Below are positions 7,469 to 35,160 of a stretch of 64,000 bases of DNA, one piece after another. The notes under the pieces are model-generated. The model had not been told where the DNA came from. It made no database searches and worked only from the letters and a program-made list of their open reading frames with translations. Made by a program: the position numbers and the translations under genes. Position 1 is the stretch's first letter. Each line of letters opens with the position of its first letter. Origin of the DNA: Nocardioides carbamazepini (GTDB lineage Bacteria > Actinomycetota > Actinomycetes > Propionibacteriales > Nocardioidaceae); the NCBI RefSeq assembly GCF_024614185.1, contig NZ_JAHTLF010000018.1, positions 531,821 through 595,820 of the forward strand. The letters are read 5' to 3'.

Positions 7469-8974
7469 TCAGGAGCCTTTCGTGGCGAGAGCCGGGCGGC
7501 TGCTCAGCAGCTGCCGGACGGTGCTGGCGCAGCCACCGCAGCCGGTGGTCGCGCGGGTGGTGTCGCGGACCTGCTCCAGCGAGGAGCAGGCGCGGATCCG
7601 GCCGGCGGTGACGCCCGCGCAGGCGCACACCTCGGTGTCGTCGGGAAGGGGGCCGGCGGCCCCGACGGCCCTGTCGGTGTCCCCTCCCGTTCGCTCCGGC
7701 ATCAGCAGCCGTCCGGGCTCGTGCGACCCCAGGACGGTCCGCCGGTCGAAGTGCTGGGTGATCAGGCCGACCCGGGACAGGTCGCCGACCAGGGTGGCCG
7801 CGACGATCCGGCCGTCGCGGACGACGAGGCGCCGGTGCGACCCCGAGACCGGGTTCGCGACCTCGACCACCTCGCCGCCGGCGGCCACCTCGGCGGCGGC
7901 GTCGCCGAGCACGGCGACGTCGAGATCGGTGGCGCGCAGCCGAGCGACGATCCGGCTGCCGTCGTACGTCACGTCCTCGTCGCAGAGGACCCCCGCGAGG
8001 ATGCCGGCCTGCTCCCAGGCGGGAGGCACGAAGCCGGTCGTGCGGCCACGCCCGTCGGCAGCCACGGTCTCGGCGCAGTCGCCGAGCGCGTGGACGGACG
8101 GATCGGTGACGCTGGCGAGCCGGTCGTCGACGACGATGCCGCGGCGGACCTCGAGCCCGGCGCCGCGGGCCAGCGCCGTCGAGGGACGACCGCCTGCGGT
8201 GAGCACGACGAGGTCGGTGTCGAGTGCGTAGCCGTTGTCGAGGCGGAGCGCGGTGCCGTTGGGGCCGTCGACCAGCCGGACGGCCCGGGCGCCGGTGTAG
8301 ACGGCGACGCCGAGCCTCTTCAGGTCCCGGGCCAGGATCCGGGCGGCGGGGGCGCTGAGCTGCTGGTGGAGCAGGTGGTCGGCGCCCTCCACGACCTCGG
8401 TCGCGATGCCGCGCGCACCGAGCGCCCGCGCGACCTGCAGCCCGAGCAGGCCACCGCCGACGACGACGGCACGCCGGCTGTACGGCAGCGCGGACACCAG
8501 GCGCTCGCAGTCGGCGAGGGACCGGAAGGCGTGCACGGCCTCGTGCAGCGACCCGTTCATCCGGACCAGGCCGCGGATCGGCGGGAGCGACGGGATGCTC
8601 CCCGTGGCGAGCACCAGGACGTCGTACTCCACGAGGGTGCCGTCGACGAGCATGACGTCCTTGCGCTGGCGGTCGATGCCGAGGACGCGGGCGCCGAGCC
8701 GGAGATCGACGCCGTGGGCGGCGTACCACTCCGGCGAGCGCAGTGTCAGTGCCTCCGTCCGGTGGGAGCCTTCGAGGACGGCGGAGAGCAGGATCCGGTT
8801 GTACGGCGCGACCTCCTCGTCGCCGAGGACCGTGACGTCCATCCGCGCGGGTGCCCGCCGGGCGACCAGCTCCTCGACCAGCCGGGTCGCGGCCATGCCG
8901 GAGCCGACGACGACGAGCCGCCGGCGCGGCTCATCTGCGTGCGGTCGGCTGGTCATGGAGCCATGGAAGGTCAC
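7469..8974 (-). CDS. FAD-dependent oxidoreductase with C-terminal BFD [2Fe-2S] domain (nitrate assimilation electron transfer)
   Basis: A 501-residue protein resembling the front half of NirB: Rossmann FAD site at the N-terminus (L-V-V-V-G-S-G-M-A), NAD(P) site mid-protein (V-V-V-G-G-G-L-L-G), and a C-terminal BFD-like domain with V-C-A-C-A-G-V and C-G-G-C cysteines. Such proteins are thought to carry electrons from NAD(P)H to the assimilatory nitrate reductase, which here has no redox domain of its own. It is first in the operon, one base before the nirB ATG. Start is GTG at 8974, placed like the nasA GTG relative to a shared GCGAAAC element; an in-frame ATG at 8956 is possible. Confidence 0.88.
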   Translation of the reverse strand: MTFHGSMTSRPHADEPRRRLVVVGSGMAATRLVEELVARRAPARMDVTVLGDEEVAPYNRILLSAVLEGSHRTEALTLRSPEWYAAHGVDLRLGARVLGIDRQRKDVMLVDGTLVEYDVLVLATGSIPSLPPIRGLVRMNGSLHEAVHAFRSLADCERLVSALPYSRRAVVVGGGLLGLQVARALGARGIATEVVEGADHLLHQQLSAPAARILARDLKRLGVAVYTGARAVRLVDGPNGTALRLDNGYALDTDLVVLTAGGRPSTALARGAGLEVRRGIVVDDRLASVTDPSVHALGDCAETVAADGRGRTTGFVPPAWEQAGILAGVLCDEDVTYDGSRIVARLRATDLDVAVLGDAAAEVAAGGEVVEVANPVSGSHRRLVVRDGRIVAATLVGDLSRVGLITQHFDRRTVLGSHEPGRLLMPERTGGDTDRAVGAAGPLPDDTEVCACAGVTAGRIRACSSLEQVRDTTRATTGCGGCASTVRQLLSSRPALATKGS

Positions 8975-9012
8975 CGAGGTTTCGCGCCGGGGCGCTCGGG
9001 TCGCACGCCGAG

Positions 9013-9036
9013 GTCAACGAGTCCTCACGGCCTCAC
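9013..9036 (-). promoter_or_regulatory. Shared nitrate-regulon box upstream of the nitrite operon
   Basis: On the minus strand this reads GTGAGGCCGTGAG, five bases, then GTTGAC. It matches 22 of 24 positions, allowing the variable base, with the box before nasA (19028-19051), and the narK box has the same 24-bp frame. GTTGAC may be the -35 region. GCGAAAC lies 27 nt downstream of GTTGAC here and 26 nt downstream in nasA. Confidence 0.65.
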
Positions 9037-9107
9037 CGCGGGGACTCCGTCTCGGTCCCGTCAGACGGCTCGACGAACGTCTGGGTATGACCGCTAGCGT
9101 CGGGGCC

Positions 9108-10601
9108 ATGCTGAGGCCCGCCCCACGTGACGTGCGTGTGTCGCGGGCCACGTACGTCGCCGCGCTGGTGGCGTTCGCTGCCTGGCTGCCGTTCCTCCGC
9201 ACGCCGCTGGCGTCCGACGCGGCCGGGTTCCTCGCCGTCGGGCAGCAGTGGGACGACGGGAGCTCGCTGTACGGCGACCACTGGGTCGACCGGCCGCCCC
9301 TGCTGATCTGGATCTTCCGCGTGACCGCCCGGCTCGGCCCGATCGGGCTCGGCGCCGACGGCGTGTCCGCGCCGGCGGTGATGGTGCTCGGCGGGGTGGC
9401 GAGCGCGGCGGTCGTCCTGCTCGCGGGACTGCTCGCCGCGCGGCTCGCGGCACCCGGCGCGCACTGGACGACCCGCGCCGTCCCGATCCTCGCCGCGGCG
9501 CTGCTGTCGAGCCCGCTCCTCGGCATGCCGGAGACCAACGGCGAGCTGCTCGCGGCGCCGTTCGTCATGCTCGGCGTCGTCGGCCTCGTCGCGGCCCTGC
9601 GGGCACCCGCCGGGCGTCGTCAGCTCCTGCTGGCGGCGGGTGCCGGCGCGGCGGCGATGGCAGCCGCGCTCGTCAAGCAGAACGTCGTGGACGCCTTCGT
9701 GTTCGCGCTCGTGCTGATCGTCCTGTGCCATGGTCGGGTGGCCGGCCTCGTCCGGCTCACGGCGGCCTTCGCGGCCGGCTCGATCGTCGTCCTGGCCGCG
9801 GCCCTCGCCTCCGCCGCCGAGCGCGGCACCTCCCCCACTGCCCTCTGGGAGGCCGTCGTGGTCTTCCGGCTCCGGGCCGGGGAGGTGATCGACACGTCGG
9901 CGAGCGACGCCACCTCGGAGCGGATGCTCCTGCTCGGGCTCGCCTTCGTCGCCAGCGGCGCGGCCACGCTCCTCGGCACGACGGTGGTCATCGCGGTCCG
10001 CGACACGCTGCGGGACGGACCGCGCGGCACTCCGCTCGCGGTGGCGGGGCTCGCCCTGGCCGGGTGGGAGCTGGTCGGCGTGGTGGCCGGCGGCAGCTAC
10101 TGGCTGCACTACCTGACCGGCCTCGTCCCGGGCATCGTGGTGCTGGCCTGCCTGGTCCGTCCCACCGCCCCGGTCCGCCAGGCGCTGGCCGCCTGTCTCG
10201 GCCTGACCCTGGTCGCGACCGCCGCGGCCTGGACCGAGCAGCTGGTCAACCCCGCCAATCCCGCCATCGCGACGGACGCCCGGATCGCGCACTACCTGCG
10301 CGACCACGCCACCCCCGGCGACGGCGTCGTGGTCGCCTTCGGCCGCCCCGACATCGTGGTGGGCAGCGGGCTGACCAGCCCGTACCCCCACCTGTGGAGC
10401 CTGCCCGTCCGGGTCCTCGACCCCGAGCTGACCGAACTGCGCGCGGTGCTGACCGGCCCGGACGCACCCCGCTGGGTCGTGGTGTCCGGCAAGAGCCTCG
10501 CCACCTGGGGCGTCGATGCGAGCGGGATCGAGGACTACTTCGTCCGGCACTACCGCGAGCAGGCGGCGTACGACGACTTCCACATCTGGCGGAGGCGATG
10601 A
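9108..10601 (+). CDS. Polytopic membrane protein, GT-C glycosyltransferase-like (family 39/PMT type)
   Basis: A 497-residue protein with about ten hydrophobic segments and a short soluble C-terminal domain. The first loop after membrane helix 1 contains S-D-A-A-G-F and the later D-R-P-P-L-L-I-W motif, typical of GT-C enzymes that use lipid-linked sugars. The natural acceptor is unknown. The ATG at 9108 is preferred over an in-frame ATG at 9087 because TAGCGT lies exactly 7 nt before it, the leaderless pattern seen elsewhere here. Single gene, divergent from the nitrite operon. Confidence 0.75.
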   Translation: MLRPAPRDVRVSRATYVAALVAFAAWLPFLRTPLASDAAGFLAVGQQWDDGSSLYGDHWVDRPPLLIWIFRVTARLGPIGLGADGVSAPAVMVLGGVASAAVVLLAGLLAARLAAPGAHWTTRAVPILAAALLSSPLLGMPETNGELLAAPFVMLGVVGLVAALRAPAGRRQLLLAAGAGAAAMAAALVKQNVVDAFVFALVLIVLCHGRVAGLVRLTAAFAAGSIVVLAAALASAAERGTSPTALWEAVVVFRLRAGEVIDTSASDATSERMLLLGLAFVASGAATLLGTTVVIAVRDTLRDGPRGTPLAVAGLALAGWELVGVVAGGSYWLHYLTGLVPGIVVLACLVRPTAPVRQALAACLGLTLVATAAAWTEQLVNPANPAIATDARIAHYLRDHATPGDGVVVAFGRPDIVVGSGLTSPYPHLWSLPVRVLDPELTELRAVLTGPDAPRWVVVSGKSLATWGVDASGIEDYFVRHYREQAAYDDFHIWRRR

Positions 10602-19096: not shown

Positions 19097-20542
<1,446 letters not shown>

Positions 20543-20586
20543 GGTCGGGTCGGGGCGCTCCCGGCAGGTCCGGGGTGGGGGTTGGT

Positions 20587-20668
20587 TCATCACGGTATGT
20601 AGGCCAACCGCCACTTCCGTAGTGGAACTCGGCGCGGGAGGTGCGAGTTCGGCTGCATACCGTGATGA
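20587..20668. repeat. 82-bp cruciform-like palindromic element
   Basis: Perfect 13-bp outer arms, TCATCACGGTATG (20587-20599) and CATACCGTGATGA (20656-20668), enclose two further hairpins: CCACT/AGTGG (20611-20625) and GAACTCG/CGAGTTC (20625-20650). The structure resembles a three-way junction. It lies between the convergent ends of gdhA and narK, where it could also end transcription from both sides. Confidence 0.65.
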
Positions 20669-20692
20669 GACCGCGCCCCCGCGATCCCCGCC

Positions 20693-22198
20693 TCAGATCC
20701 CGGCATCGGCGTATGTCCGCCCCCGGCGGCAGTAGACCGCCCAGGTGACGACGAGACACGCGACGTAGAAGGCAGCGAAGACCGCGAAGGCACTGCGGGT
20801 CGCGGCCAGCGGCTCGCTCACCCACGGGCTGTTGAACGTGATCGGGATGAGGAAGCCGCCGAGCGCGCCGACGGCGCCGATGATGCCGACCGCGGCCGAC
20901 GACCGGCGCGTGCCGTCGAGCAGCGCGAGCTCGCGCTCGGGGCTGTCCTCGACGGTCGCCTGGATGGCGTCGGCGCGGTGGATGGCCGGGATCATCTTGT
21001 ACGTCGACCCGTTGCCGATGCCCGTGCAGGCGAACACCAGCAGGAAGACGCCGAGGAAGAGCGGGAAGACCTCCGTGTTGGTGTCGACGGCGGCGCTCTG
21101 CGCGGCGCCGCCGGCAGCCGGGATCGGGGTCAGCATCGCGAGCGTGCCGAGGATCCCGAGCGTGCCGAGTACCAGCCCGCCGAAGGCGAGCAGCGTGACC
21201 CGCGCTCCGCCGTACCGGTCGGCGAGGTGGCCGCCGAGCGGGCGGGTGACCGACCCGACCAGCGCGCCGAGGAAGGCGTAGTAGGCGAACTCGATGCCGG
21301 ACCCCGAGCCCGGACCGGTCTGGTGCCAGAAGTTGAGCTTGATCAGCAGCGGCAGCGCGGCGGAGTAGCCGATGAAGGAGCCGAAGGTGCCGATGTAGAG
21401 GAAGGCCATCACCCAGGTGTGCCGGTGCTTGAGGATGCTCAGCTGCTGGCGGGTGTCGGTGCGGGCGTTGGCCAGGTTGTCCATCCGGAAGCAGGCGGCC
21501 AGGACGGCGACCACCGCCAGTCCGGCGTACACCCAGGCGGCACGCTCGAGGTGGATGCCGCCCGCGCCGGCCTGCACGAGGCCGAAGACACCGGCCCCGC
21601 CGACGAGCACCGGCAGGAACAGCTGGATGAGCGCGACACCCAGGTTGCCGCCGGCCGCGTTGAGTCCGAGCGCGGCGCCCTTGAGCCGGGCGGGATAGAA
21701 GAAGTTGATGTTCGCCATCGAGCTGGCGAAGTTGCCGCCGCCGAAGCCCGCCGTCGCGGCGATCACGCAGAACACGGCGTACGGCGTGCCCGGCTGGGTG
21801 ACGGCGTACGCGAAGCCGAGCGTCGGCACGAGCAGCAACCCGGCGCTGACCATGGTCCAGTTGCGACCGCCGAAGCGCCCCACCGCCAGGGTGTAGGGGA
21901 CACGGATCAGGGCGCCCACCAGGTTGGGGATCGCGATCAGGAGGAAGAGCTGCTGGGGCGAGAACGCGAAGCCCTGCGCCACCAGAAAGGCCGAGCTGAC
22001 GCTCCAGATCAGCCACACGGAGAAGCCGAGGTGCTCGGCGAAGATCGACCAGACCAGGTTGCGGCGGGCGATCGGGGCGCCGGTGGTCTCCCAGAAGTCC
22101 GGGTCCTCCGGGCGCCAGTCCTCGATCCACCGGCCGCGGCGGCGGGACGGTTCGGGTGCGCGGGTGGCAAGGTCGCCACCGGGGCTGGTCAGGGTCAT
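20693..22198 (-). CDS. narK: NarK-type nitrate/nitrite transporter
   Basis: A 501-residue MFS protein of the nitrate/nitrite porter family. A soluble N-terminus (W-R-P-E-D-P-D-F-W-E) is followed by twelve helices; the NNP signature region appears as A-G-F-G-G-G-N-F-A-S-S-M-A-N-I near residue 155 and a second glycine-rich motif G-A-L-G-G-F near 445. It would import nitrate for NasA, or exchange nitrate and nitrite. It ends convergent to gdhA. Its promoter carries the GTGAG repeats shared with nasA and the nitrite operon. Confidence 0.93.
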   Translation of the reverse strand: MTLTSPGGDLATRAPEPSRRRGRWIEDWRPEDPDFWETTGAPIARRNLVWSIFAEHLGFSVWLIWSVSSAFLVAQGFAFSPQQLFLLIAIPNLVGALIRVPYTLAVGRFGGRNWTMVSAGLLLVPTLGFAYAVTQPGTPYAVFCVIAATAGFGGGNFASSMANINFFYPARLKGAALGLNAAGGNLGVALIQLFLPVLVGGAGVFGLVQAGAGGIHLERAAWVYAGLAVVAVLAACFRMDNLANARTDTRQQLSILKHRHTWVMAFLYIGTFGSFIGYSAALPLLIKLNFWHQTGPGSGSGIEFAYYAFLGALVGSVTRPLGGHLADRYGGARVTLLAFGGLVLGTLGILGTLAMLTPIPAAGGAAQSAAVDTNTEVFPLFLGVFLLVFACTGIGNGSTYKMIPAIHRADAIQATVEDSPERELALLDGTRRSSAAVGIIGAVGALGGFLIPITFNSPWVSEPLAATRSAFAVFAAFYVACLVVTWAVYCRRGRTYADAGI

Positions 22199-22460: not shown

Positions 22461-23009
22461 ATGGATGTCGCCTACGCCGAACGCTTCGAGCGGATCCCCA
22501 TGTCCCGGGCCGAGTTCGATCAGCTGCCGGAGAAGGTTCGGGCGGAGTACGTCGACGGCGTCGCTCTCGTGACGCCGCCCGCGCGCGGCGATCACAACGG
22601 GGTGGGCCTCGAGCTCGCGATCGTTCTCCGGCAGGCGTTCCCCGACGCCATCGTCCGCTACGACCGCGGCGTCGAGCTGCCGACCGGAACCCTGCGGATT
22701 CCTGATGTCGCGGTGCAGATCGTTCGTGACGACGAGGCGTGGTCGCCGAACCTGCCGGTGCTGGTCGTCGAGATCCTCTCCCGCTCGACGCGCAGTGAGG
22801 ATCTCTTCCGAAAGACCGACGACTACCGCAGATCAGGGATCCAGCAGTACTGGATCGTCGACCGCGCGGCCCGGACCCTCGCCGTCCTGGTCAATGCGGG
22901 CGAGCACTGGGACATCGGCCTCAGCCTCACGGACGACAGTCCGACGGGCTCGATCGAGGTCGCCGACCTCGGCGGCGTCGAGCTCGACCTGACGGCGCTA
23001 CTGGCCTGA
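22461..23009 (+). CDS. Uma2 family (DUF820) endonuclease-like protein
   Basis: A 182-residue protein of the Uma2/DUF820 family, a PD-(D/E)xK nuclease-like fold. The core motifs are visible: E-Y-V-D-G-V near residue 30, P-D-V-A-V-Q near 85, and V-V-E-I-L-S-R-S-T-R followed by a Y-W-I-V-D strand. Its cellular role is unknown for most members. ATG at 22461 follows AGGA with 8 nt spacing. It stands alone and its end overlaps the end of the convergent siderophore operon by 12 bp. Confidence 0.85.
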   Translation: MDVAYAERFERIPMSRAEFDQLPEKVRAEYVDGVALVTPPARGDHNGVGLELAIVLRQAFPDAIVRYDRGVELPTGTLRIPDVAVQIVRDDEAWSPNLPVLVVEILSRSTRSEDLFRKTDDYRRSGIQQYWIVDRAARTLAVLVNAGEHWDIGLSLTDDSPTGSIEVADLGGVELDLTALLA

Positions 23010-23549
23010 CAGCGCGAAGCCTCGCGCGATCTCCAGCGCGCGCTCCCGGTCGAGGAAGAAGAACTGCGCCGGCTTCTCGGCGATGCTCGTGCGGAGGTCG
23101 ACGAGCGGCCCACGCTCGCAGCCGACCCGCTCCATCATGGCGACGGAGGCGGTGTTGCGCGCGTCCGGCTCGAAGACCAGGCGCCGGCAGCCGGGCAGGT
23201 GGGCCACGAAGTCGAGCCCCGCAGCGATGACCTCCGCGGTCCGGCCGGCGCGGCGCCGGTCGTCGGCGAGGAGGAGGTGGATCCCGACGTCGCCCGGGAG
23301 GCGGTCGTACCACCGGCCGATCTCGTCGACCTCCGGGTCGTAGGTCTGCAGCAGGCCGACGGGGGCCTCGTCGACCTCGATGAGGTACGCCGCCAGATGG
23401 GCCTGCTCGACGATATAGGTGTAGACCAGCGCGACGTCCGCCACCGAGTGGTCGGTCATCCCCCAGAACTCCGCGCGCGGGGTGCTGACCCAGGTGTGCA
23501 GCAGGGCAGCGTCCCGCTCGGGGACGACAGGGCGGATCGCGACGGTCAT
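22998..23549 (-). CDS. GNAT acetyltransferase of siderophore type (IucB/RhbD-like)
   Basis: A 183-residue GNAT acyltransferase of the siderophore acetyltransferase subfamily: H-T-W-V-S-T-P-R-A-E-F-W-G-M near the N-terminus, G-I-H-L-L-L in the middle and E-P-D-A-R-N-T-A-S before the final helix. Such enzymes acylate N-hydroxy-lysine or N-hydroxy-diamines. It is last of five genes and its ATG overlaps the previous stop by 4 nt. Another GNAT domain of the same subfamily is fused to the synthetase in this operon, so two acyl groups or two products may be made. Confidence 0.88.
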   Translation of the reverse strand: MTVAIRPVVPERDAALLHTWVSTPRAEFWGMTDHSVADVALVYTYIVEQAHLAAYLIEVDEAPVGLLQTYDPEVDEIGRWYDRLPGDVGIHLLLADDRRRAGRTAEVIAAGLDFVAHLPGCRRLVFEPDARNTASVAMMERVGCERGPLVDLRTSIAEKPAQFFFLDRERALEIARGFALSGQ

Positions 23550-25537
23550 GCGGACTCCTCGGTGACGGGTCGGGTGATCGGGATCGTGCCCCCGGCCGCC
23601 CAGACCGCCTGCTGGTCGTGGTGGTGCGGCGAGGCCGGGTCGCCGCTCGCGCCGAGGGGCACGACCCAGCGGCTGTCACCGGCCAGGTCCCAGACCCAGC
23701 GGGCGACCGGCCCGTGCAGACAGGCACCGGTGCCGCCGAGGGCGCGGGTGGCGAGGACGCAGTCGTCGTCGCCGGACAGCGCGAGGTACGGAGGCGCGGA
23801 GCCGTCCGGGGCATCGAGGCCGAGCTGCTGATGCGGCGTGAGGGGTACGGCGACGTGACCGGTCCCCCACGCGGCGGGCGCGGGCTGTGTCGCCACCTGC
23901 TCCAGCGCGGCCGCCACGAGCTGCAGCACATCGACGCCGAACGGCTTGCCGGCGGCCAGGATCGCGGGCAGGCACAGCCGGATCCGGCCGCGCAGGTCGA
24001 ACCACGGCGCGAACAGCTCGCCGTGCGGGGAGCCGTCGACGCCGCGCAGCGCGGGGGCGTCGGACAGGCCATCGACGACGGCGGCCCGGACCTGCGCGAA
24101 GAGAGCGGCGTCGACGCTGCCGGCGGCCATCCGGCGGTCCCAGGCGAGCAGCCGGTCGCGGAGCGCCGCGGACAAGTCGGTGAGATCGACCAGGGACGCG
24201 ATCGTGTCGAGCAGCGCGGCGCCGGCGGTCTGCCGGTCGTCGCCGAGCACGGCGCCGACGGCGCCGGGCGTCAGGGGTCCGGCCGCCGCCCGGTCGTCGA
24301 GGAGCTCCCGGATCCGGTGGGCCCGGTGCGGCGGGGCGAAGTCGGAGCCGACCCGCTCGAAGTCCGGCGTGGCACGGTCGTTGGCGGTGACGAGCACCGG
24401 GCCGGTCCGGCGCGGCAGGTCCGCGACCCAGCCGCCCGTCCACCGGCGATCGCCGTCGCGTTCGGGGATCCGCCCGACCACGCGGTGCTCGGTGCGGCCG
24501 TACCGGTCGCCGACCACGAGGTTGTCGACCGGGCCCACCCAGCCGGCGAAGGCGGCGGTCACGTCCCTGGCGCGCCGGGAGCGCAGCAGCGGGAGGATCG
24601 CGTCGAGCCCGAGGTCGCCCAGGACGTAGGCGGGCGTGCGCAGGCTGAACGTCTCCGGTTCGTCCGGTCCACCGACCACCACGGGGCCGCGCTCGGTGAC
24701 GAGCACCTCGACCTCGTGCACGTCGTAGCTGTCGGCGCCGGTGCGGACCCGCACCTGCTCGACCCGGCCGGCGACCGGCTCCCACCCCGACGCGCCCCGA
24801 GCGATGACCGCGTCCCGATGACGGACCAGCTCCTCGACGTACACGTCCTCGTCGTCGGCCACCGCGTTGGTGATCCCCCACGCGACATCGCCGGCGTGGC
24901 CGAAGTGCTGGACACCAGGGACGCCGACGAAGGTGAGGCCGGCGACGTCGAAGGGGTCGTGCGGGTCGGTGCAGACCAGCCGCACCTGGGCGTAGCAGCC
25001 GGGCGCCTCGATCACCCGGTGCGGGTCGCCGGCGAGGATCGGCAGCCCGCTGGCGGTCAGGGACCCGTCGACGACGAGCGCGTTGCTGCCCCCGGGCAGG
25101 CCCTCGGTGCGGAAGAGCGGGAGCCACTCGTCGCCGGTCGTCGCCGCGAGGTGGCGCCGCCAGAGCTGGCTGGGGAAGCCGGAGAACAGCAGGTGCTGGA
25201 CGGCGAACACGGCGAGCGGCGTCCACGGCTGCCACCGGCGTTCGACGACCTCGTTGACGCCCTCGACGTAGGCATCCACGAAGGCGCGACTCTGGGTCGA
25301 GAGGGCGGCGTACGCCCGTCGGGCGACGTCGACGAGCAGCGCGCGGCGAGCCAGGACGTCCCACTCGACGGCGGTCGCGCCGAAGACCTCGGCACAGGTC
25401 CCCTCGGCGCGGCGGCGCTCGACCTCGAGCTGCCAGGCCCGGTCCTGCGCGGTCGCGCGGCCCTGGGCGCGCGCGACCGCGAGCACGGAGTCGCCCACCA
25501 CATGGGGGATTCCGTGCTCGTCGCGGGTGATGGTCAC
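23546..25537 (-). CDS. Penicillin acylase family protein (siderophore operon)
   Basis: A 663-residue Ntn-hydrolase of the penicillin acylase family. The expected nucleophile is Ser151 in G-G-S-N-A-L-V-V, where the precursor would cleave itself. It lacks a signal peptide: the protein begins directly with the family motif T-I-T-R-D-E-H-G-I-P-H, so it should act in the cytoplasm, unlike classical periplasmic penicillin acylases. Similar genes are known beside desferrioxamine-type clusters in some Streptomyces, where an acyl-exchange role has been proposed. Here it is coupled by 4-nt overlaps on both sides. Exact reaction unknown. Confidence 0.85.
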   Translation of the reverse strand: MTITRDEHGIPHVVGDSVLAVARAQGRATAQDRAWQLEVERRRAEGTCAEVFGATAVEWDVLARRALLVDVARRAYAALSTQSRAFVDAYVEGVNEVVERRWQPWTPLAVFAVQHLLFSGFPSQLWRRHLAATTGDEWLPLFRTEGLPGGSNALVVDGSLTASGLPILAGDPHRVIEAPGCYAQVRLVCTDPHDPFDVAGLTFVGVPGVQHFGHAGDVAWGITNAVADDEDVYVEELVRHRDAVIARGASGWEPVAGRVEQVRVRTGADSYDVHEVEVLVTERGPVVVGGPDEPETFSLRTPAYVLGDLGLDAILPLLRSRRARDVTAAFAGWVGPVDNLVVGDRYGRTEHRVVGRIPERDGDRRWTGGWVADLPRRTGPVLVTANDRATPDFERVGSDFAPPHRAHRIRELLDDRAAAGPLTPGAVGAVLGDDRQTAGAALLDTIASLVDLTDLSAALRDRLLAWDRRMAAGSVDAALFAQVRAAVVDGLSDAPALRGVDGSPHGELFAPWFDLRGRIRLCLPAILAAGKPFGVDVLQLVAAALEQVATQPAPAAWGTGHVAVPLTPHQQLGLDAPDGSAPPYLALSGDDDCVLATRALGGTGACLHGPVARWVWDLAGDSRWVVPLGASGDPASPHHHDQQAVWAAGGTIPITRPVTEESA

Positions 25538-27894
25538 GGCGCCACCGGGTTGCGCAACGTGCCGGCGAAGATGAGCGACTCGGCCTGGTCGGTCAGGTCG
25601 ACCATCTGCAGGGTGTTGCGGAGCTGCAGCCGGTTGAGGCAGCTGTGCCGGAACTCCGGTCGCAGCAGGTCGTAGCGCCGCGCGGCCTCGACCAGCTCGG
25701 GATGGTCGGCCGCGTGCTGCTCGATGGTCTCGCGCGCGATCGCCCAGAACTCCGCGGCGGGCAGCATCCCGTCGTCGTCCAGGATCGCCGCGACGAAGCG
25801 CAGCACGCCGTCAAGGATGTCGGTGTGGACGGCGAGCGCCTTGACGTCGTCGGGGAAGCTGCCGCGGATCCGCTCGACCTCGGCCGGCAGCGGCAGACTC
25901 AGCCCACCGGGAGGGGCCATCACGACGACCTCCTCGCCGATGTCCTTCATGAACGCGCCGACCGGGATGTGGTCGCGCAGCCGCAGCAGCAGGTTCTCGC
26001 CGTGCGGCATGAAGGCGAGGTCGTAGGCGTGCAGGCAGTGCACGAGCGGACGGAGGTAGGCCCGCAGGTAGCCGCGCACCCAGGTCGCCGCGTCGACCGG
26101 CGACGCCTTGATCCACGCGGTGACGAGCGCGTCGCCGTCGGCGTCGCGGTGCAGCAGCGCGGCCATGGTGGTCAGCTGCTCGCCCGCGGGGGTGCGGGGC
26201 ACCGGGCTCTCGCGCCACAGCGCCGCGATCATCTTCCGGTACGGCGACGGGCCGGCCACGCGGTGGAAGGCATCGCCCGTGTAGCCGATGGCCGCCCGCT
26301 CGCGGAGCACCTCGAACCCGCACGCCCTCAGCTCGTCGTCGGCCTCGACGACCGAGGCCACCCAGTCGTTGATCGCCGGGGTCGCCGCCATGTAGGCGGG
26401 CGAGAGCCCGCGCACGAAGCCCATGTTCTGGATGGCGAGCGCGGTCTTCACGTAGTGCCGCTCCGGCCTGCTGGCGTTGAAGAAGGTGCGGATCGACTGC
26501 TGCGGGCGGTGGTCGTCGTCGCCGGCGCCGAGGTGGACGAGGTCGCGGCGCGCGACGTCCGGCGCGAAGGTGATCGCCAGCTTGTGCTGCCACTGCCACG
26601 GGTGCACGGGGACGAACAGGTAGTCGGCCGGGTCGAGACCGAGGGCGCGCAGCCGGCCGGCGAAGCGGTCCCGGACGCCCGGCACCAGCTCGCCGTCGTA
26701 CAGCTCCGCCTCGGTGGCGTCGGCGGCCAGCGACAGGTGCGTGAGGGCGCGGCGCGCGGCGAGCCAGTGCAGCCGGACCGGTCGGCCGGTCTCGGGCGCG
26801 TAGGCGCGATAGTCGTCGAGGCCGAAGCCGATCCGCCCGTTGTTGGCGACGAACGCGGGATGTCCCTCCGTCATCGCCGACTCGATCTCCTGGTAGCCCG
26901 CATCGACCAGGTCGGCCACCGGGACGGCGCGGTGGCGCAGCTTCCACGCACCGGCCGCCAGCGTGGCGGCGATCTCCTCGAGGTAGGTCGGCAGCAGCTG
27001 GTCCGGGATGCCCAGCGTCGGCGCCAGCTCCGCGATCAGCTCCTGGGCGTCAGGGGCGGTCGTGCCACCGTCGCGGGTGCGCTCGATCGAGACGGGGTCG
27101 ACGACCCAGTGGTCGAGGAGGTGCCGCGTCGCCGTGAAGGTGTACGACGACGGGCCGGCCACGACCCGCCACCGCTCCTCGCCGGGGACCGGGGTGGGGG
27201 CCAGGAGCCGCTCGTGGGCGAACTCACCCAGCGCCTTGGCCACCAGGTGCCGCTGGGCGCGGTCCATCAGCTCGGGGGTGAGGTGGTCCGCGGGGTCGGC
27301 GTGGTCACGCACCAACCGGAACTGCTGCGTCTCGGCGGTCCGGACAGCGCATTCGGTAGGTGCGCGGACCAGGTCCGGCGCGTTCCAGTCGTCTCGGGAG
27401 CAGACCGACAGCACCGCGGTCTTGCCGGGCAGCGCGACCTCGCGGACCTCGACGAAGCCGGCGGCGACGTTCTTGGCACGGATCCTCTCGTTGCGGGCGT
27501 CCGGATCGACGACCACCCGGCGCACGGCCGGATCGGCGAAGCAGTGCGCCATGACCGCGTCGAAGACGGTCGTGGTGAGGCCGCGGACCGGGGAGCCGGC
27601 GGGCGGCGCGACGAGCAGGTGCATGCCGAGGTCGCCGTCGCCCACCTCCGGCAGGCCGGCCAGCGGGGAGTGCGCCGGGTCGTAGGTCTCGGCCAGGAAG
27701 ACCGGTCGCCCGTCGACCCGGCCCAGCCAGGCGTCATGGTGCGGGTTCGCGAGGATCCCGGCGTACTCCCGGCCGACGTCGTCGCGACTGGCGTCCTGCA
27801 TCATCCAGTACGCCGAGCGCGGGTGGGTGACCCATGCGTGGAGCAGATCGAGGTCGCGCTCGACGTCGACCGGCTCGAGGGTGACGGTCCGCAT
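25534..27894 (-). CDS. GNAT acyltransferase fused to IucA/IucC siderophore synthetase
   Basis: A 786-residue fusion. Residues 1-175 are a siderophore GNAT domain (H-A-W-V-T-H-P-R-S-A-Y-W, then D-P-D-A-R-N). Residues about 200-786 are an NRPS-independent synthetase: H-P-W-Q-W in the middle, S-I-R-T-F-F-N, K-T-A-L-A-I-Q-N-M-G, G-Y-T-G-D-A-F and H-G-E-N-L-L-L-R-L-R-D. It should use ATP to condense an N-hydroxy-N-acyl diamine with a carboxylate, as DesD does for desferrioxamines. In the des pathway the acyltransferase (DesC) and synthetase (DesD) are separate. Its ATG shares one base with the preceding stop. Confidence 0.93.
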   Translation of the reverse strand: MRTVTLEPVDVERDLDLLHAWVTHPRSAYWMMQDASRDDVGREYAGILANPHHDAWLGRVDGRPVFLAETYDPAHSPLAGLPEVGDGDLGMHLLVAPPAGSPVRGLTTTVFDAVMAHCFADPAVRRVVVDPDARNERIRAKNVAAGFVEVREVALPGKTAVLSVCSRDDWNAPDLVRAPTECAVRTAETQQFRLVRDHADPADHLTPELMDRAQRHLVAKALGEFAHERLLAPTPVPGEERWRVVAGPSSYTFTATRHLLDHWVVDPVSIERTRDGGTTAPDAQELIAELAPTLGIPDQLLPTYLEEIAATLAAGAWKLRHRAVPVADLVDAGYQEIESAMTEGHPAFVANNGRIGFGLDDYRAYAPETGRPVRLHWLAARRALTHLSLAADATEAELYDGELVPGVRDRFAGRLRALGLDPADYLFVPVHPWQWQHKLAITFAPDVARRDLVHLGAGDDDHRPQQSIRTFFNASRPERHYVKTALAIQNMGFVRGLSPAYMAATPAINDWVASVVEADDELRACGFEVLRERAAIGYTGDAFHRVAGPSPYRKMIAALWRESPVPRTPAGEQLTTMAALLHRDADGDALVTAWIKASPVDAATWVRGYLRAYLRPLVHCLHAYDLAFMPHGENLLLRLRDHIPVGAFMKDIGEEVVVMAPPGGLSLPLPAEVERIRGSFPDDVKALAVHTDILDGVLRFVAAILDDDGMLPAAEFWAIARETIEQHAADHPELVEAARRYDLLRPEFRHSCLNRLQLRNTLQMVDLTDQAESLIFAGTLRNPVAP

Positions 27895-29189
27895 CAGATC
27901 GCCTGCTTCAGGTGGTCGGGGACGCCGAACGTCTGCACGGCGACCTGCTTCTCGACGGGGTACACCTCGCGGCCGAGCATCGCGGCGACGATGACCGAGT
28001 TGCGGTACGGGCCCATGCCGAGGTCCGGGGCCAGCAGGGAGTGGGTGTGCTCCTCGGCGTTCTGCACGAAGATCTCGCCGCCGCGTACGTCGACGGAGTA
28101 GTCGGCGGCGACGTCGTAGCGACCGCGGGCGTCGTACCGGATCCGGTCCCGGACGCCGTCGAGGAACGCTGGCCGGGTGGGCGCGTAGCCGGTGGCGAGC
28201 ACCAGGCCCCCGGTGGCGAGGCCGAACGACTCACCGGTCTCGACGTGCAGCAGGTCCAGCTCGCTGCCGCCCGTGACCGGGCGGGCGCCGCGGACCTCGG
28301 TGTTGGTGAGCAGCGTCGTGCGCGGGCCGACGCCGGTGACCCGCTGCTGGTAGTGCAGGTCGAAGATCGCGTCGACCAGGTCGCCGCTGATCCCCTTGAA
28401 CAGGTGACGCTGCTCGCGGGCCAGCCGGTCGCGGGTGTCGATGGGGAGCGCACGGTGGTAGGCGCCGTACTCCGGCGAGGTCATCTCCAGCGTGAGCTTG
28501 GTGTACTCCATCGGGAAGAACCGCGGGCTGCGGGTCAGCCACACCAGCTCGTAGCCGCGGTCCGGCGCCTCGGCCAGCAGGTCCTGGTAGATCTCGGCCG
28601 CGCTCTGGCCGCTGCCGACGATGGTGATCCGCTCCTGCTGCTGCAGCTCGGCCTTGCGGGAGAGGTAGTCAGCCGAGTGCGTCGCGATGCCGTGGTCGAC
28701 CAGCGGGCGGAGCGGGTCCGGGACGCGCGGGGACGTGCCGATACCGAGGACCAGCCGACGGGTCCGCCAGGTCTCGCCGGCGGCGCTGCGCACGACGTAC
28801 GCCGTCCCGTCGTGCGTCACCTCGGTGACCCGCTGCCCGAAGCGCACGGAGGGCAGGCTCTCGGCGGCCCAGCGGCAGTAGTCGTCGTACTCCTTGCGCA
28901 GCGGGTAGAAGCTCTCGCGGATGTAGAACGGGTAGAGGTGGCCGGTCTGCTTGAGGTAGCTGAGGAACGACCAGCGCGAGGTCGGGTCGGCCATCGTGAC
29001 GAGGTCGGCGAGGAACGGGACCTGCAGGCTCGCGTCGTCGAGCAGCATCCCGGGGTGCCAGTCGAAGCCGTCGCGGGCCTCCAGGAAGACACCGTCGAGG
29101 TCGTCGCTCGCCCGCAGCGGGTCGGTCAGGCAGGCCAGGCCGAGGTTGAACGGACCGAGGCCGATGCCGACGAAGTCGTGGGTGATCAC
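27894..29189 (-). CDS. Lysine/diamine N-hydroxylase (IucD/DesB-like)
   Basis: A 431-residue flavin monooxygenase of the SidA/IucD/PvdA family, which hydroxylates a terminal amine using FAD and NADPH. The FAD motif G-I-G-L-G-P-F-N-L-G-L-A lies at residues 7-18, the NADPH motif G-S-G-Q-S-A-A-E-I-Y near 195, and the substrate motif A-T-G-Y near 335. GTG at 29189 overlaps the decarboxylase stop by 4 nt. With a decarboxylase before it, the likely substrate is cadaverine or putrescine rather than free lysine. Confidence 0.93.
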   Translation of the reverse strand: MITHDFVGIGLGPFNLGLACLTDPLRASDDLDGVFLEARDGFDWHPGMLLDDASLQVPFLADLVTMADPTSRWSFLSYLKQTGHLYPFYIRESFYPLRKEYDDYCRWAAESLPSVRFGQRVTEVTHDGTAYVVRSAAGETWRTRRLVLGIGTSPRVPDPLRPLVDHGIATHSADYLSRKAELQQQERITIVGSGQSAAEIYQDLLAEAPDRGYELVWLTRSPRFFPMEYTKLTLEMTSPEYGAYHRALPIDTRDRLAREQRHLFKGISGDLVDAIFDLHYQQRVTGVGPRTTLLTNTEVRGARPVTGGSELDLLHVETGESFGLATGGLVLATGYAPTRPAFLDGVRDRIRYDARGRYDVAADYSVDVRGGEIFVQNAEEHTHSLLAPDLGMGPYRNSVIVAAMLGREVYPVEKQVAVQTFGVPDHLKQAI

Positions 29190-30652
29190 CGGGCGACCTC
29201 CAGCGTCTGCCGCTGGTGCGCGGGCGCCAGCCGGGCGCCGGCGGCCCGGACGAGGCCGAGGACCCCCGTGATGTCCTCGACCGTCGCCATCGGGTTGAGC
29301 AGGGTGAGCTTGAGGTGCTGCACGCCGTCGACCTTGGTCGCCGCGATCATCGCCCGGCCCGACGCGTAGAGCTCCTCCCGGATCGCGTTGGCGAGGGCGG
29401 CGCTCGCCCTCTCGTCGAGCGCGGGCCCGGGCGGGACGTAGCGGAAGACGAGGGTGCTCAGCTCGGGTGCGGCGGCGAAGGCGAGGTCGACCTCGTCCCG
29501 GTGGGCGGCGTACACCTCCGTCGCGAGGTCGATGACCGCGTCGACGTACCGGCCGACGAGGTCGGGTCCCATCGTCCGCAGCGTCACCCACAGCTTGAGT
29601 GCGTCGAAGCGGCGGGTGGTCTGCAGGCTCTTGTCGACCTGGTTGGGGTTGGTGGCCTCGCGCGGGTTGAGGTAGTCGGCGTGCCAGGTCGCCGGGCGCA
29701 GCGTGGCACGGTCGCGCACGACGATCGCGCTCGACGACACCGGCTGGAAGAAGGTCTTGTGGAAGTCGACGGTCACCGAGTCCGCGCGCTCGATCCCCCG
29801 GAGCCGGTCGCGGCGGGTCGGGGAGACGAGGAGCCCGCCGCCGTACGCCGCGTCGACGTGGAGCCAGGCGTCGTACGCGACGGCGAGGTCGGCGATCTCG
29901 TCGAGCGGGTCGATCGCGCCGAAGTCCGTGGTCCCTGCCGTCGCGACGATCGCCATCGGCCGCAGGCCGAGATCGACGCAGGCCGCGAGCGAGCGCTCCA
30001 GCGCGACCGGGTCCATCCGGTGCCGCTCGTCGGTCGGCACGCTGACCACAGACTCGTCGCCGAGGCCGAGCAGCCGCGCGGACTTCTGCACCGAGAAGTG
30101 GCTCTCCGCCGAGGCGAGGATGCGCAGCCGCTCGGCGGGGACCTGCTCGTGCCGGCCGCGGGCGAGCAGCAGGGCCTGCAGGTTGGACTGGCTGCCGCCG
30201 CTGGTGAACACCCCGTCCGGGTCACCGCCCTCGTCGTAGCCGATCCGCTCCGCCGTCCACGCGATCAGGCGCCGCTCGATGAACGTCCCTCCGACGCTCT
30301 GGTCGAAGGTGTCCAGCGAGCTGTTGACCGAGGCCACGAACAGCTCGGCCAGCAGGGCCGGTACGACGACCGGGCAGTTGAGGTGGGCGGCGTACGACGG
30401 CTCGTGGAACCAGACCGCGTCGTCGAGCCACAGCCGCGACATCTCGTCGAGGACCTGGGTGGCATCGGCCAGCGGCTGGTCGAGATCGACCTCCGCCACC
30501 TGGGCGGCCGCCCGGTGCGGTGGCATACCGGTCGCCGGTCCGCTCACCCCCTTGAGCTGGCGCAGCAGGTGATCGAGACCCTCGCCGAGAGTGGCGGCGT
30601 AGTGGTCGGCATGGGCAGGATGGAACACGTGGTGCAAGGGGAGCTGAGGCAC
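29186..30652 (-). CDS. PLP-dependent amino acid decarboxylase (DesA-like, siderophore)
   Basis: A group II PLP decarboxylase of about 488 residues. The PLP lysine is in D-F-H-K-T-F-F-Q-P, the cofactor aspartate in L-H-V-D-A-A-Y-G-G, and T-S-G-G-S-Q-S-N-L lies near residue 145. As first gene of a hydroxamate operon it probably makes cadaverine from lysine, the DesA step. GTG at 30652 is chosen because the iron box at 30676-30694 lies just upstream, AAGTGAG precedes it, and the length fits the family; the open frame reaches 30994 but would run through the operator. Confidence 0.9.
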   Translation of the reverse strand: MPQLPLHHVFHPAHADHYAATLGEGLDHLLRQLKGVSGPATGMPPHRAAAQVAEVDLDQPLADATQVLDEMSRLWLDDAVWFHEPSYAAHLNCPVVVPALLAELFVASVNSSLDTFDQSVGGTFIERRLIAWTAERIGYDEGGDPDGVFTSGGSQSNLQALLLARGRHEQVPAERLRILASAESHFSVQKSARLLGLGDESVVSVPTDERHRMDPVALERSLAACVDLGLRPMAIVATAGTTDFGAIDPLDEIADLAVAYDAWLHVDAAYGGGLLVSPTRRDRLRGIERADSVTVDFHKTFFQPVSSSAIVVRDRATLRPATWHADYLNPREATNPNQVDKSLQTTRRFDALKLWVTLRTMGPDLVGRYVDAVIDLATEVYAAHRDEVDLAFAAAPELSTLVFRYVPPGPALDERASAALANAIREELYASGRAMIAATKVDGVQHLKLTLLNPMATVEDITGVLGLVRAAGARLAPAHQRQTLEVAR

Positions 30653-30675
30653 GACAGGCTCACTTCGGTCCGAGA

Positions 30676-30694
30676 TCAGGTAAGCCTTACCTAA
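30676..30694 (-). promoter_or_regulatory. DtxR/IdeR/DmdR iron box
   Basis: The 19-bp sequence TTAGGTAAGGCTTACCTGA (minus strand) matches the actinobacterial iron-box consensus at 16 of 19 positions and is nearly palindromic. It sits 24 bp before the decarboxylase GTG, so the siderophore operon should be repressed by an iron-loaded DtxR-family protein. Confidence 0.88.
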
Positions 30695-31367: not shown

Positions 31368-32971
31368 TGGACGACCAGCTCCTCACCACCCTGCTGTTCC
31401 TCGCCGTCGTCGCCCTGACCCTCGGCATCACCATCTGGGCGAGCCGCCAGACGTCCGGCACGGCCGACTTCTATGCCGGTGGCCGCAGCTTCTCGGGCAT
31501 CCAGAACGGCTTCGCGATCGGCGGCGACTACATGTCGGCGGCGTCCTTCCTCGGCATCTCCGGCGCGATCGCGCTGTCCGGGTACGACGGCTTCCTGTAC
31601 TCGATCGGCTTCCTCGTCGCCTGGCTCGTCGCGCTCCTGCTCGTCGCGGAGATGCTGCGCAACTCCGGCCGCTACACGATGGCCGACCAGCTGGCGTACC
31701 GCATGAAGCAGCGCCCGGTCCGGATGGCCGCGGCCACGTCGACGGTCGTGGTGTCGATCTTCTACCTGCTGGCCCAGATGGTGGGCGCGGGTGCGCTCGT
31801 CGCGCTCCTGCTCGGCGCGGACAGCCAGGCGCTGAAGAACCTCACCATCGTCGGCGTCGGCGCCCTGATGATCTTCTACGTCACCATCGGCGGCATGAAG
31901 GGCACCACCTGGGTGCAGATCGTCAAGGCGATCCTGCTGATGGTGGGCTCGGCGCTGATCGTCGTCCTGGTGCTCGCGCACTTCCACTTCAACCTGTCCG
32001 AGCTGCTCGGCACCGCCGCGTCCAACACCGGCAAGGGCCAGGCATTCCTCGAGCCCGGGCTGAAGTACGGCATCGACACCACCAGCAAGATCGACTTCCT
32101 CAGCCTCGGCCTGGCGCTGGTGCTCGGTACCGCGGGGCTGCCGCACATCCTGATCCGCTTCTACACCGTCCCGACGGCCCAGGACGCCCGCAAGTCGGTG
32201 CTCTGGGCGATCGGCCTGATCGGCGTGTTCTACCTGTTCACGCTGGTGCTCGGCTTCGGCGCGGCCGCGATGCTCAAGGGCGACAAGGCCACCGACGTGG
32301 CGGCGTCCGGCGGCAACCTGGCGTCGCCGCTGCTCGCCGAGGAGGTCGGTGGCGGCGCCGGGTCCACGGGCGGCGCGATCCTGTTGGCGTTCATCGCGGC
32401 AGTCGCCTTCGCGACGATCCTCGCGGTGGTGGCGGGCCTGACCCTCACCTCCTCGACCTCCGTGGCGCACGACATCTACAACAGCGTCGTGAAGGGCGGG
32501 AAGGCGAGCGAGCACGACGAGATCAAGGTGACCCGGATCGCCGCGGCGGCCATCGGCGTCATCTCCATCGCGCTCGCGATCCCGGCGCAGAAGCTGAACA
32601 TCGCCTTCCTGGTGGCGCTCGCGTTCGCGGTGGCGGCCTCGGCCAACCTGCCGGCGATCGTCTACAACATGTTCTGGAAGCGCTTCAACACCCGTGGCGC
32701 CACCTGGGGCATCTACGGCGGCCTGCTGTCGTCGGTCGGCCTGGTGTTCTTCTCCCCCGTCGTGTCGGGCTCGGAGACCGCTCTGGTCACCGGCGCGGAC
32801 TGGTCCTGGTTCCCGCTGAGCAACCCGGGCATCATCTCGATCCCGCTCGGCTTCTCCTTCGGCTGGCTCGGCACCGTCACCTCCCACGAGCCGGAGGCCG
32901 AGGAACGGTTCACCGAGCTCGAAGTCCGTGCCCTCACGGGCGCGGGCGCCGAGCAGGCGGTCCAGCACTAG
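31367..32971 (+). CDS. Sodium/solute symporter, acetate permease ActP-like
   Basis: A 534-residue SSS family transporter with about thirteen helices. The typical start A-D-F-Y-A-G-G-R-S-F-S-G-I-Q-N-G and the G-D-Y-M-S-A-A-S-F-L-G substrate region lie in the first 75 residues; P-H-I-L-I-R-F-Y-T-V is mid-protein. With DUF485 upstream and acetyl-CoA synthetase 200 bp downstream, acetate or another short monocarboxylate is the likely substrate. Confidence 0.93.
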   Translation: MDDQLLTTLLFLAVVALTLGITIWASRQTSGTADFYAGGRSFSGIQNGFAIGGDYMSAASFLGISGAIALSGYDGFLYSIGFLVAWLVALLLVAEMLRNSGRYTMADQLAYRMKQRPVRMAAATSTVVVSIFYLLAQMVGAGALVALLLGADSQALKNLTIVGVGALMIFYVTIGGMKGTTWVQIVKAILLMVGSALIVVLVLAHFHFNLSELLGTAASNTGKGQAFLEPGLKYGIDTTSKIDFLSLGLALVLGTAGLPHILIRFYTVPTAQDARKSVLWAIGLIGVFYLFTLVLGFGAAAMLKGDKATDVAASGGNLASPLLAEEVGGGAGSTGGAILLAFIAAVAFATILAVVAGLTLTSSTSVAHDIYNSVVKGGKASEHDEIKVTRIAAAAIGVISIALAIPAQKLNIAFLVALAFAVAASANLPAIVYNMFWKRFNTRGATWGIYGGLLSSVGLVFFSPVVSGSETALVTGADWSWFPLSNPGIISIPLGFSFGWLGTVTSHEPEAEERFTELEVRALTGAGAEQAVQH

Positions 32972-32986
32972 CCCGGGGCCCGTCCT

Positions 32987-33056
32987 TGTAACTACCTGCT
33001 ACCGCCACTACCGCACCGGTAGACCGGTGCGGTAGTGGCAAGAACAGATAGTTACA
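32987..33056. repeat. 70-bp nested palindrome between actP and acs
   Basis: Inner arms GCCACTACCGCACCGGT (33004-33020) and its complement (33023-33039) pair perfectly over 17 bp around AG. Outer arms TGTAACTA (32987-32994) and TAGTTACA (33049-33056) also pair, with 9 nt on each side between inner and outer arms. It begins 16 bp after the symporter stop, so it may terminate or attenuate transcription. There is no T-run. Confidence 0.7.
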
Positions 33057-33171
33057 GCAGAAGGCCGCCTCACCGGCGCCCGGACCGGCAACCCGCATGC
33101 AACCCCTTGTCGACAGACTTCCCGTGGGTCCTAATGTGACCTGAGGCACCCCACTCGATCAGGAGACGACC

Positions 33172-35160
<1,989 letters not shown>

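Follow-up and report, generated by a model that had tools for sequence, protein, structure and literature searches.

A 64,000-nucleotide stretch of Nocardioides carbamazepini (NCBI RefSeq assembly: GCF_024614185.1; contig: NZ_JAHTLF010000018.1, positions 531,821 to 595,820 of the forward strand), called the window below, carries a siderophore locus whose best reading is an operon of the desferrioxamine type that includes an exchange of acyl groups. On its minus strand, from 30694 down to 22998, an iron box, desA, desB, desCD, desG and desH follow each other as one compact set. We put the probability at about 0.8 that this is an iron-repressed desferrioxamine operon with a DesG/DesH acyl exchange giving desferrioxamines E and B. 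Gene content, domain make-up, operon layout, the iron box and the kinship to other DesG and DesH proteins were observed directly. The locus is an example of known biology; its parts are already known and alone it raises no new question. The desGH pattern published for producers of desferrioxamine B (DFO B) extends with it to the Nocardioidaceae, and in a related group desG and desH are already known to favour the acetyl-capped product, used as a drug, over the cyclic one. Because DFO B is an iron-overload drug, compact operons of this kind could lend themselves to its production, or to testing the proposed de-succinylation biochemically.

Operon layout and iron control

The first gene, desA (29186-30652, minus strand), encodes a pyridoxal phosphate (PLP)-dependent decarboxylase (PF00282 Pyridoxal_deC, E 7.6e-57), which would convert lysine to cadaverine. 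Its GTG start was assigned from the position relative to the iron box, and its best NCBIfam match is L-2,4-diaminobutyrate decarboxylase, with 401 of 900 bits and far under the cut-off of that model. It is followed on the same strand by desB (27894-29189), a flavin N-monooxygenase (PF13434 Lys_Orn_oxgnase, E 2.6e-112) and putative cadaverine N-hydroxylase, and by desCD (25534-27894), in which a DesC acyltransferase domain (residues ~1-175) precedes a DesD synthetase domain (~200-785) of the nonribosomal peptide synthetase-independent siderophore (NIS) type. The Pfam families Acetyltransf_8, IucA_IucC and FhuF are all found within this single frame of 786 amino acids (aa). The last two genes are desG (23546-25537, minus strand), a penicillin-amidase-family N-terminal nucleophile (Ntn) hydrolase without signal peptide (PF01804 Penicil_amidase, E 3.9e-128), and desH (22998-23549, minus strand), a second GCN5-related N-acetyltransferase (GNAT; PF13523 Acetyltransf_8, E 2.5e-39) that would transfer acetyl to N-hydroxycadaverine. 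PLP decarboxylase, N-monooxygenase, GNAT and IucA/IucC synthetase thus lie in adjacent genes, which is the content of a desABCD NIS cluster, and the window's own genome contains one IucA/IucC match.

Consecutive genes overlap by 4 (desA/desB), 1 (desB/desCD), 4 (desCD/desG) and 4 bases (desG/desH), so that one transcript with translational coupling is likely. A scan for sigma-70 promoters found none, and the single weak terminator-like site, inside desH, compares with a chance expectation of 0.7. The gene order is kept in near relatives. A first-pass annotation of the same DNA had described five overlapping genes behind a strong iron box, an acyltransferase fused to the synthetase, a second GNAT and an embedded penicillin-acylase-like enzyme lacking a signal peptide; all of this agrees with the present analysis.

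The iron box (30676-30694, minus strand) precedes the assigned start of desA by 23 bases, in the place where a des cluster has it, and is a predicted operator for a regulator that we take to be of the IdeR/DmdR1 type. It matches TTAGGTWAGGCTWACCTRA on the minus strand with 0 mismatches where 0 matches were expected, and 100 shuffles gave no match even when up to 3 mismatches were allowed. The sequence at this position, TTAGGTAAGGCTTACCTGA, scores 18 of 19 against TTAGGTWAGSCTWACCTAA. For comparison, 140 loci resembling the window in DesCD or DesG were collected, hence a non-random sample, and nine duplicates were dropped. A site scoring at least 15 of 19 was found in 73 of 74 related desA upstream regions of at least 250 bases, whereas one letter-shuffle per region never scored above 13; the 79 loci that have both a DesC and a DesD domain include five more, in which desA was not found or had less than 250 bases upstream. 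Genome-wide, six places match the iron box at two mismatches or fewer and a reversed-pattern control matched none. Scanning one frame at each of the other five revealed HtaA, SIP and HrcA domains at three places and no Pfam family at two. The box at G000:C18:182972 (L221) adjoins a siderophore-interacting-protein frame and that at G000:C11:727514 (L219) an HtaA-domain frame; such neighbours fit an iron regulon, and both sites are probable members of the same regulon as the operon.

DesG, DesH and the proposed acyl exchange

Alignment of DesG proteins showed that Ser151, His173 and Asn386 are identical in 102/102 rows. Ser151, the residue that had been singled out for such an alignment beforehand, aligns with the first beta-chain residue of the best solved match, 35sz, a structure that is not among the 50 fold-search matches listed for the DesG model; His173 and Asn386 presumably act as its partners, as in penicillin acylases. 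Residue 3 of DesG aligns to residue 9 of 1ai4_A, so the protein begins approximately where mature alpha chains begin, and its assigned start overlaps the desCD stop. Translation from this start codon therefore leaves no space for a signal peptide. Judged by this alignment from the assigned start, DesG differs from a classical penicillin G acylase, which is an exported precursor with an N-terminal signal peptide. An AlphaFold model built from a 15-row alignment (mean predicted local distance difference test score 87.3, predicted template modelling score 0.90) matched best to cephalosporin acylase 4e55 (Z 36.9, root mean square deviation (rmsd) 3.4, 564 aligned residues) and next to D-succinylase 7eby (Z 34.1, rmsd 3.0, 615 aligned). 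The likeness of the modelled fold to a succinyl-amide hydrolase would fit a de-succinylating role and is no proof of function. An amidase of this family, a second GNAT and iron-box control occur together here, the setting of a DesG of the SCO4049 type; the Streptomyces DesG loci compared were others than SCO4049. The same genome holds a second penicillin-amidase-family gene (L032, G000:C11:654851-657280), which matches the DesG profile far less well.

For DesH, labels were given by gene position only: DesC just upstream of DesD, DesH downstream of DesG or of DesD. In a FastTree phylogeny, from which one DesH row (L169) was excluded for a stop codon in its matched range, 88 DesH and 80 DesC rows fell on opposite sides of one branch with a local support of 100. 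The window's DesH groups with the GNATs that adjoin desG in other actinobacteria (the SCO4050 type), apart from the DesC domains, and shares 41% identity over 133 residues with the DesC domain of its own operon. One His (position 92 in DesC, 91 in DesH) and one Asp (132 and 129, respectively), which are presumed catalytic residues, are kept in all rows of both groups, which suggests that both enzymes may be catalytically competent. The groups differ most sharply at two positions: Glu69 in 80/80 DesC versus Gln68 in 87/88 DesH and, three residues before, Phe66 in 78/80 DesC versus Ala or Gly65 in 87/88 DesH. The Glu is also found in DfoC and NcdE; further, less sharp differences are present.

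The chemistry of the pathway would follow from the genetics of Streptomyces coelicolor and from the known desferrioxamine pathway. DesA and DesB would turn lysine into N-hydroxycadaverine, which the DesC domain would succinylate, and the fused DesD domain would join and cyclise these units to desferrioxamine E (DFO E). In the cytosol, DesG would strip the succinyl group from part of the N-hydroxy-N-succinylcadaverine; DesH, presumably using acetyl-CoA as the S. coelicolor genetics imply, would acetylate the freed N-hydroxycadaverine, and this acetylated unit would cap the chain to give DFO B. The same de-succinylation by DesG and acetylation by DesH were proposed for S. coelicolor, where desG loss lowered DFO B ~1000-fold and desH loss ~16-fold, DFO E rose, and the losses were complemented (PMC12161575, PLoS Biol 2025). 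Nine strains without desGH made uncapped products only, and some strains carry a fused desGH (PMC12161575). The S. coelicolor system (desABCD, SCO2782-2785; desGH, SCO4049-4050) shares with the window the enzyme functions, DesG and DesH homologues (compared through other Streptomyces loci), the iron-box control and the predicted DFO E and DFO B; it differs in that desC and desD are separate genes and desJGH is a separate locus, whereas the window has a fused desCD with desG and desH in the same operon.

The two genes that the first-pass annotation had called unusual tailoring genes are thus of the desG and desH kinds already reported for DFO B formation in S. coelicolor (PMC12161575). Its suggestion of a desferrioxamine-like product with an exchanged acyl group was right in outline as regards the exchange, which is already published. 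Plain desferrioxamines E and B are the most likely products; since the annotation itself had named ordinary desferrioxamines as the outcome that would speak against it, its stronger claim of a novel acylated product probably fails.

Linkage of desG with desH and the C-D fusion across genomes

Among 60 loci picked by DesCD similarity alone, 30 have desG inside the des operon. DesH adjoins DesG on the same strand in 86 of 101 other distinct DesG loci, with similar counts where desD lies in the stretch (43/49) and where it does not (43/52). In the 52 desG loci without desD, an iron-box score of at least 15 was found within 1.5 kb upstream in 36, where shuffles reached 14 at most. A further search was made in all 30 genomes whose desC-desD locus has no desG (at three such loci neither desA nor desB was seen): 15 carry desG elsewhere (E <=1e-90), with DesH beside it in 12, and the remaining 15 showed no desG at the 1e-90 threshold. 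The published pattern, in which desG belongs to the des cluster or to an iron-controlled locus of its own, therefore recurs in this sample of mostly Nocardioidaceae; the term 'Nocardioid' is absent from the available main text of PMC12161575.

Two of the three genomes without a DesH beside this desG, G106 and G097 (L043 and L044, with L213 and L211), have desH directly after a fused desCD in the des operon, and the only desG found in them lies elsewhere with no DesH within ~1.5 kb. We had considered desG loss for these two operons and rejected it, as both genomes carry the gene. Both desG and desH are thus kept even when separated, as expected of partners.

Near relatives carry the same operon with fused desCD, desG and desH, namely Pimelobacter simplex ATCC 6946 (L095), Nocardioides sp. 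SLBN-35 (L094) and Nocardioides sp. LHD-245 (L096); they differ from the window in sequence only, at 75-100% protein identity. Over the matched stretches, the operon proteins of LHD-245 show 98-100% identity to those of the window. Its desG (L096, ~8001-9991) matches in two different frames, which suggests that the gene is broken or misassembled; the better of the two matched pieces was used, and its desH, although present, was not counted as adjacent.

The fused DesCD can be aligned over its whole length with DfoC of Erwinia amylovora (5o7o; residues 5-785, E 4.6e-207) and DesD structures match its residues 199-785; DfoC and DesD are its closest solved relatives. It thus has the build of DfoC and BibC, with both domains in one frame and in the same order. 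The dfoJAC locus of E. amylovora differs in having three genes, no desG or desH among them, and DFO E as the major product (PMC6391442, as far as its available text goes). BibC of Aliivibrio salmonicida and BsbCD1 of Tenacibaculum mesophilum are likewise chimeric acyltransferase-synthetases, and with BsbC2 the bsb cluster contains another acyltransferase as well; their products, however, are bisucaberin and bisucaberin B, and no penicillin amidase is among the six bsb genes tabulated in the part of PMC6164419 that was available.

The 79 distinct loci with both domains comprise 41 fused and 38 split. On a FastTree phylogeny of DesD including the window (80 rows), the fused or split label changes at least 13 times, eight of these forced by well-supported branches. 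This scatter suggests that fusion and fission happen often; a fused DesCD in itself does not point to an unusual product. We also rejected the idea that the fusion is new, as DfoC, BibC and BsbCD1 precede it and fused loci are common here. A joint reading would have the C-D fusion channel succinylated monomer to the ring while DesG and DesH of the same operon compete for it, with fusion and fission (C-D versus G-H) tuning the E:B ratio and the Glu to Gln and Phe to Ala/Gly changes marking a switch in acyl preference; we regard this as unlikely. In 44 loci, the window among them, G-H is fused in 2 and separate in 21 of those with fused C-D, against 8 and 13 of those with split C-D (Fisher p 0.031). 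The idea that C-D fusion excludes G-H fusion was rejected: well-supported branches give four phylogenetically independent pairs, and a sign test on them was not significant (median p 1).

Alternative readings and neighbouring genes

The near-fixed differences between DesH and DesC could also mean that DesG and DesH add another cap, aryl or fatty acyl, with DesG as an acyl-transferring amidase or DesH using another acyl-CoA, so that the capped desferrioxamine would not be DFO B. We consider this quite improbable: no arylated product is known from S. coelicolor according to PMC12161575, the major compounds of Nocardioides simplex 3E are desferrioxamines B, D3 and E and bisucaberin (PMC7824959), and the five operon genes include no acyl-CoA ligase, polyketide synthase or fatty-acyl synthesis gene. 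DesG might instead be a hydrolase acting after uptake, which recycles ferrioxamines or cleaves foreign ones while DesH re-acetylates the fragments. Enzymes of the penicillin-amidase family hydrolyse many amides, and DesG, which lacks a signal peptide when read from its assigned start, is probably cytosolic. The gene, however, sits in a biosynthetic transcription unit, and the near abolition of DFO B with a rise of DFO E upon desG loss points to synthesis and not to recycling (PMC12161575), which makes such a role very improbable. Least probable of all is an operon that works on putrescine, a shorter diamine, or whose main product is the cyclic dimer bisucaberin, DesG and DesH then having a minor effect. 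Bisucaberin is among the major compounds of strain 3E (PMC7824959), and the decarboxylase matches several NCBIfam families, none above cut-off; among solved relatives, however, the synthetase domain is closest to DfoC and DesD, both placed in the trimer clade (PMC6164419).

Several points weigh against the reading as an iron-repressed operon in which DesG and DesH exchange succinyl for acetyl. In an NCBIfam scan of the five operon proteins, nothing reached a curated cut-off. The window's DesG is ~42-46% identical to the Streptomyces DesG proteins found, so its substrate preference could differ. No DesH was detected adjacent in 15 of the 101 other DesG loci, at least three of which lie at a contig end or have a broken gene, and 16 of the 52 desG loci without desD had no iron-box score of at least 15 within 1.5 kb upstream. 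De-succinylation by DesG is itself a proposal in PMC12161575. Strain 3E is known here from its reported products, and the operon comparison is with P. simplex ATCC 6946; 3E branches apart from other simplex strains, the discussion suggests that DFO B may not be its main siderophore, and the available text names no amidase or acyltransferase (PMC7824959).

Production of ferrioxamine B by an N. simplex strain was already on record in 1968 (PMC7824959). DFO B has also been reported for Kribbella, and the word 'penicillin' is absent from the portion of that text available (PMC7411998). No paper turned up in a literature search for penicillin acylase together with siderophore and desferrioxamine.

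A Uma2-family gene (putative restriction endonuclease; 22461-23009, plus strand) converges on the 3' end of the operon and overlaps the end of desH by 12 bases. The neighbours scanned beyond (19160-22198 and 31376-35160) look unrelated to iron and include a glutamate dehydrogenase-type gene, a major facilitator superfamily transporter, a sodium:solute symporter and an acetyl-CoA synthetase.

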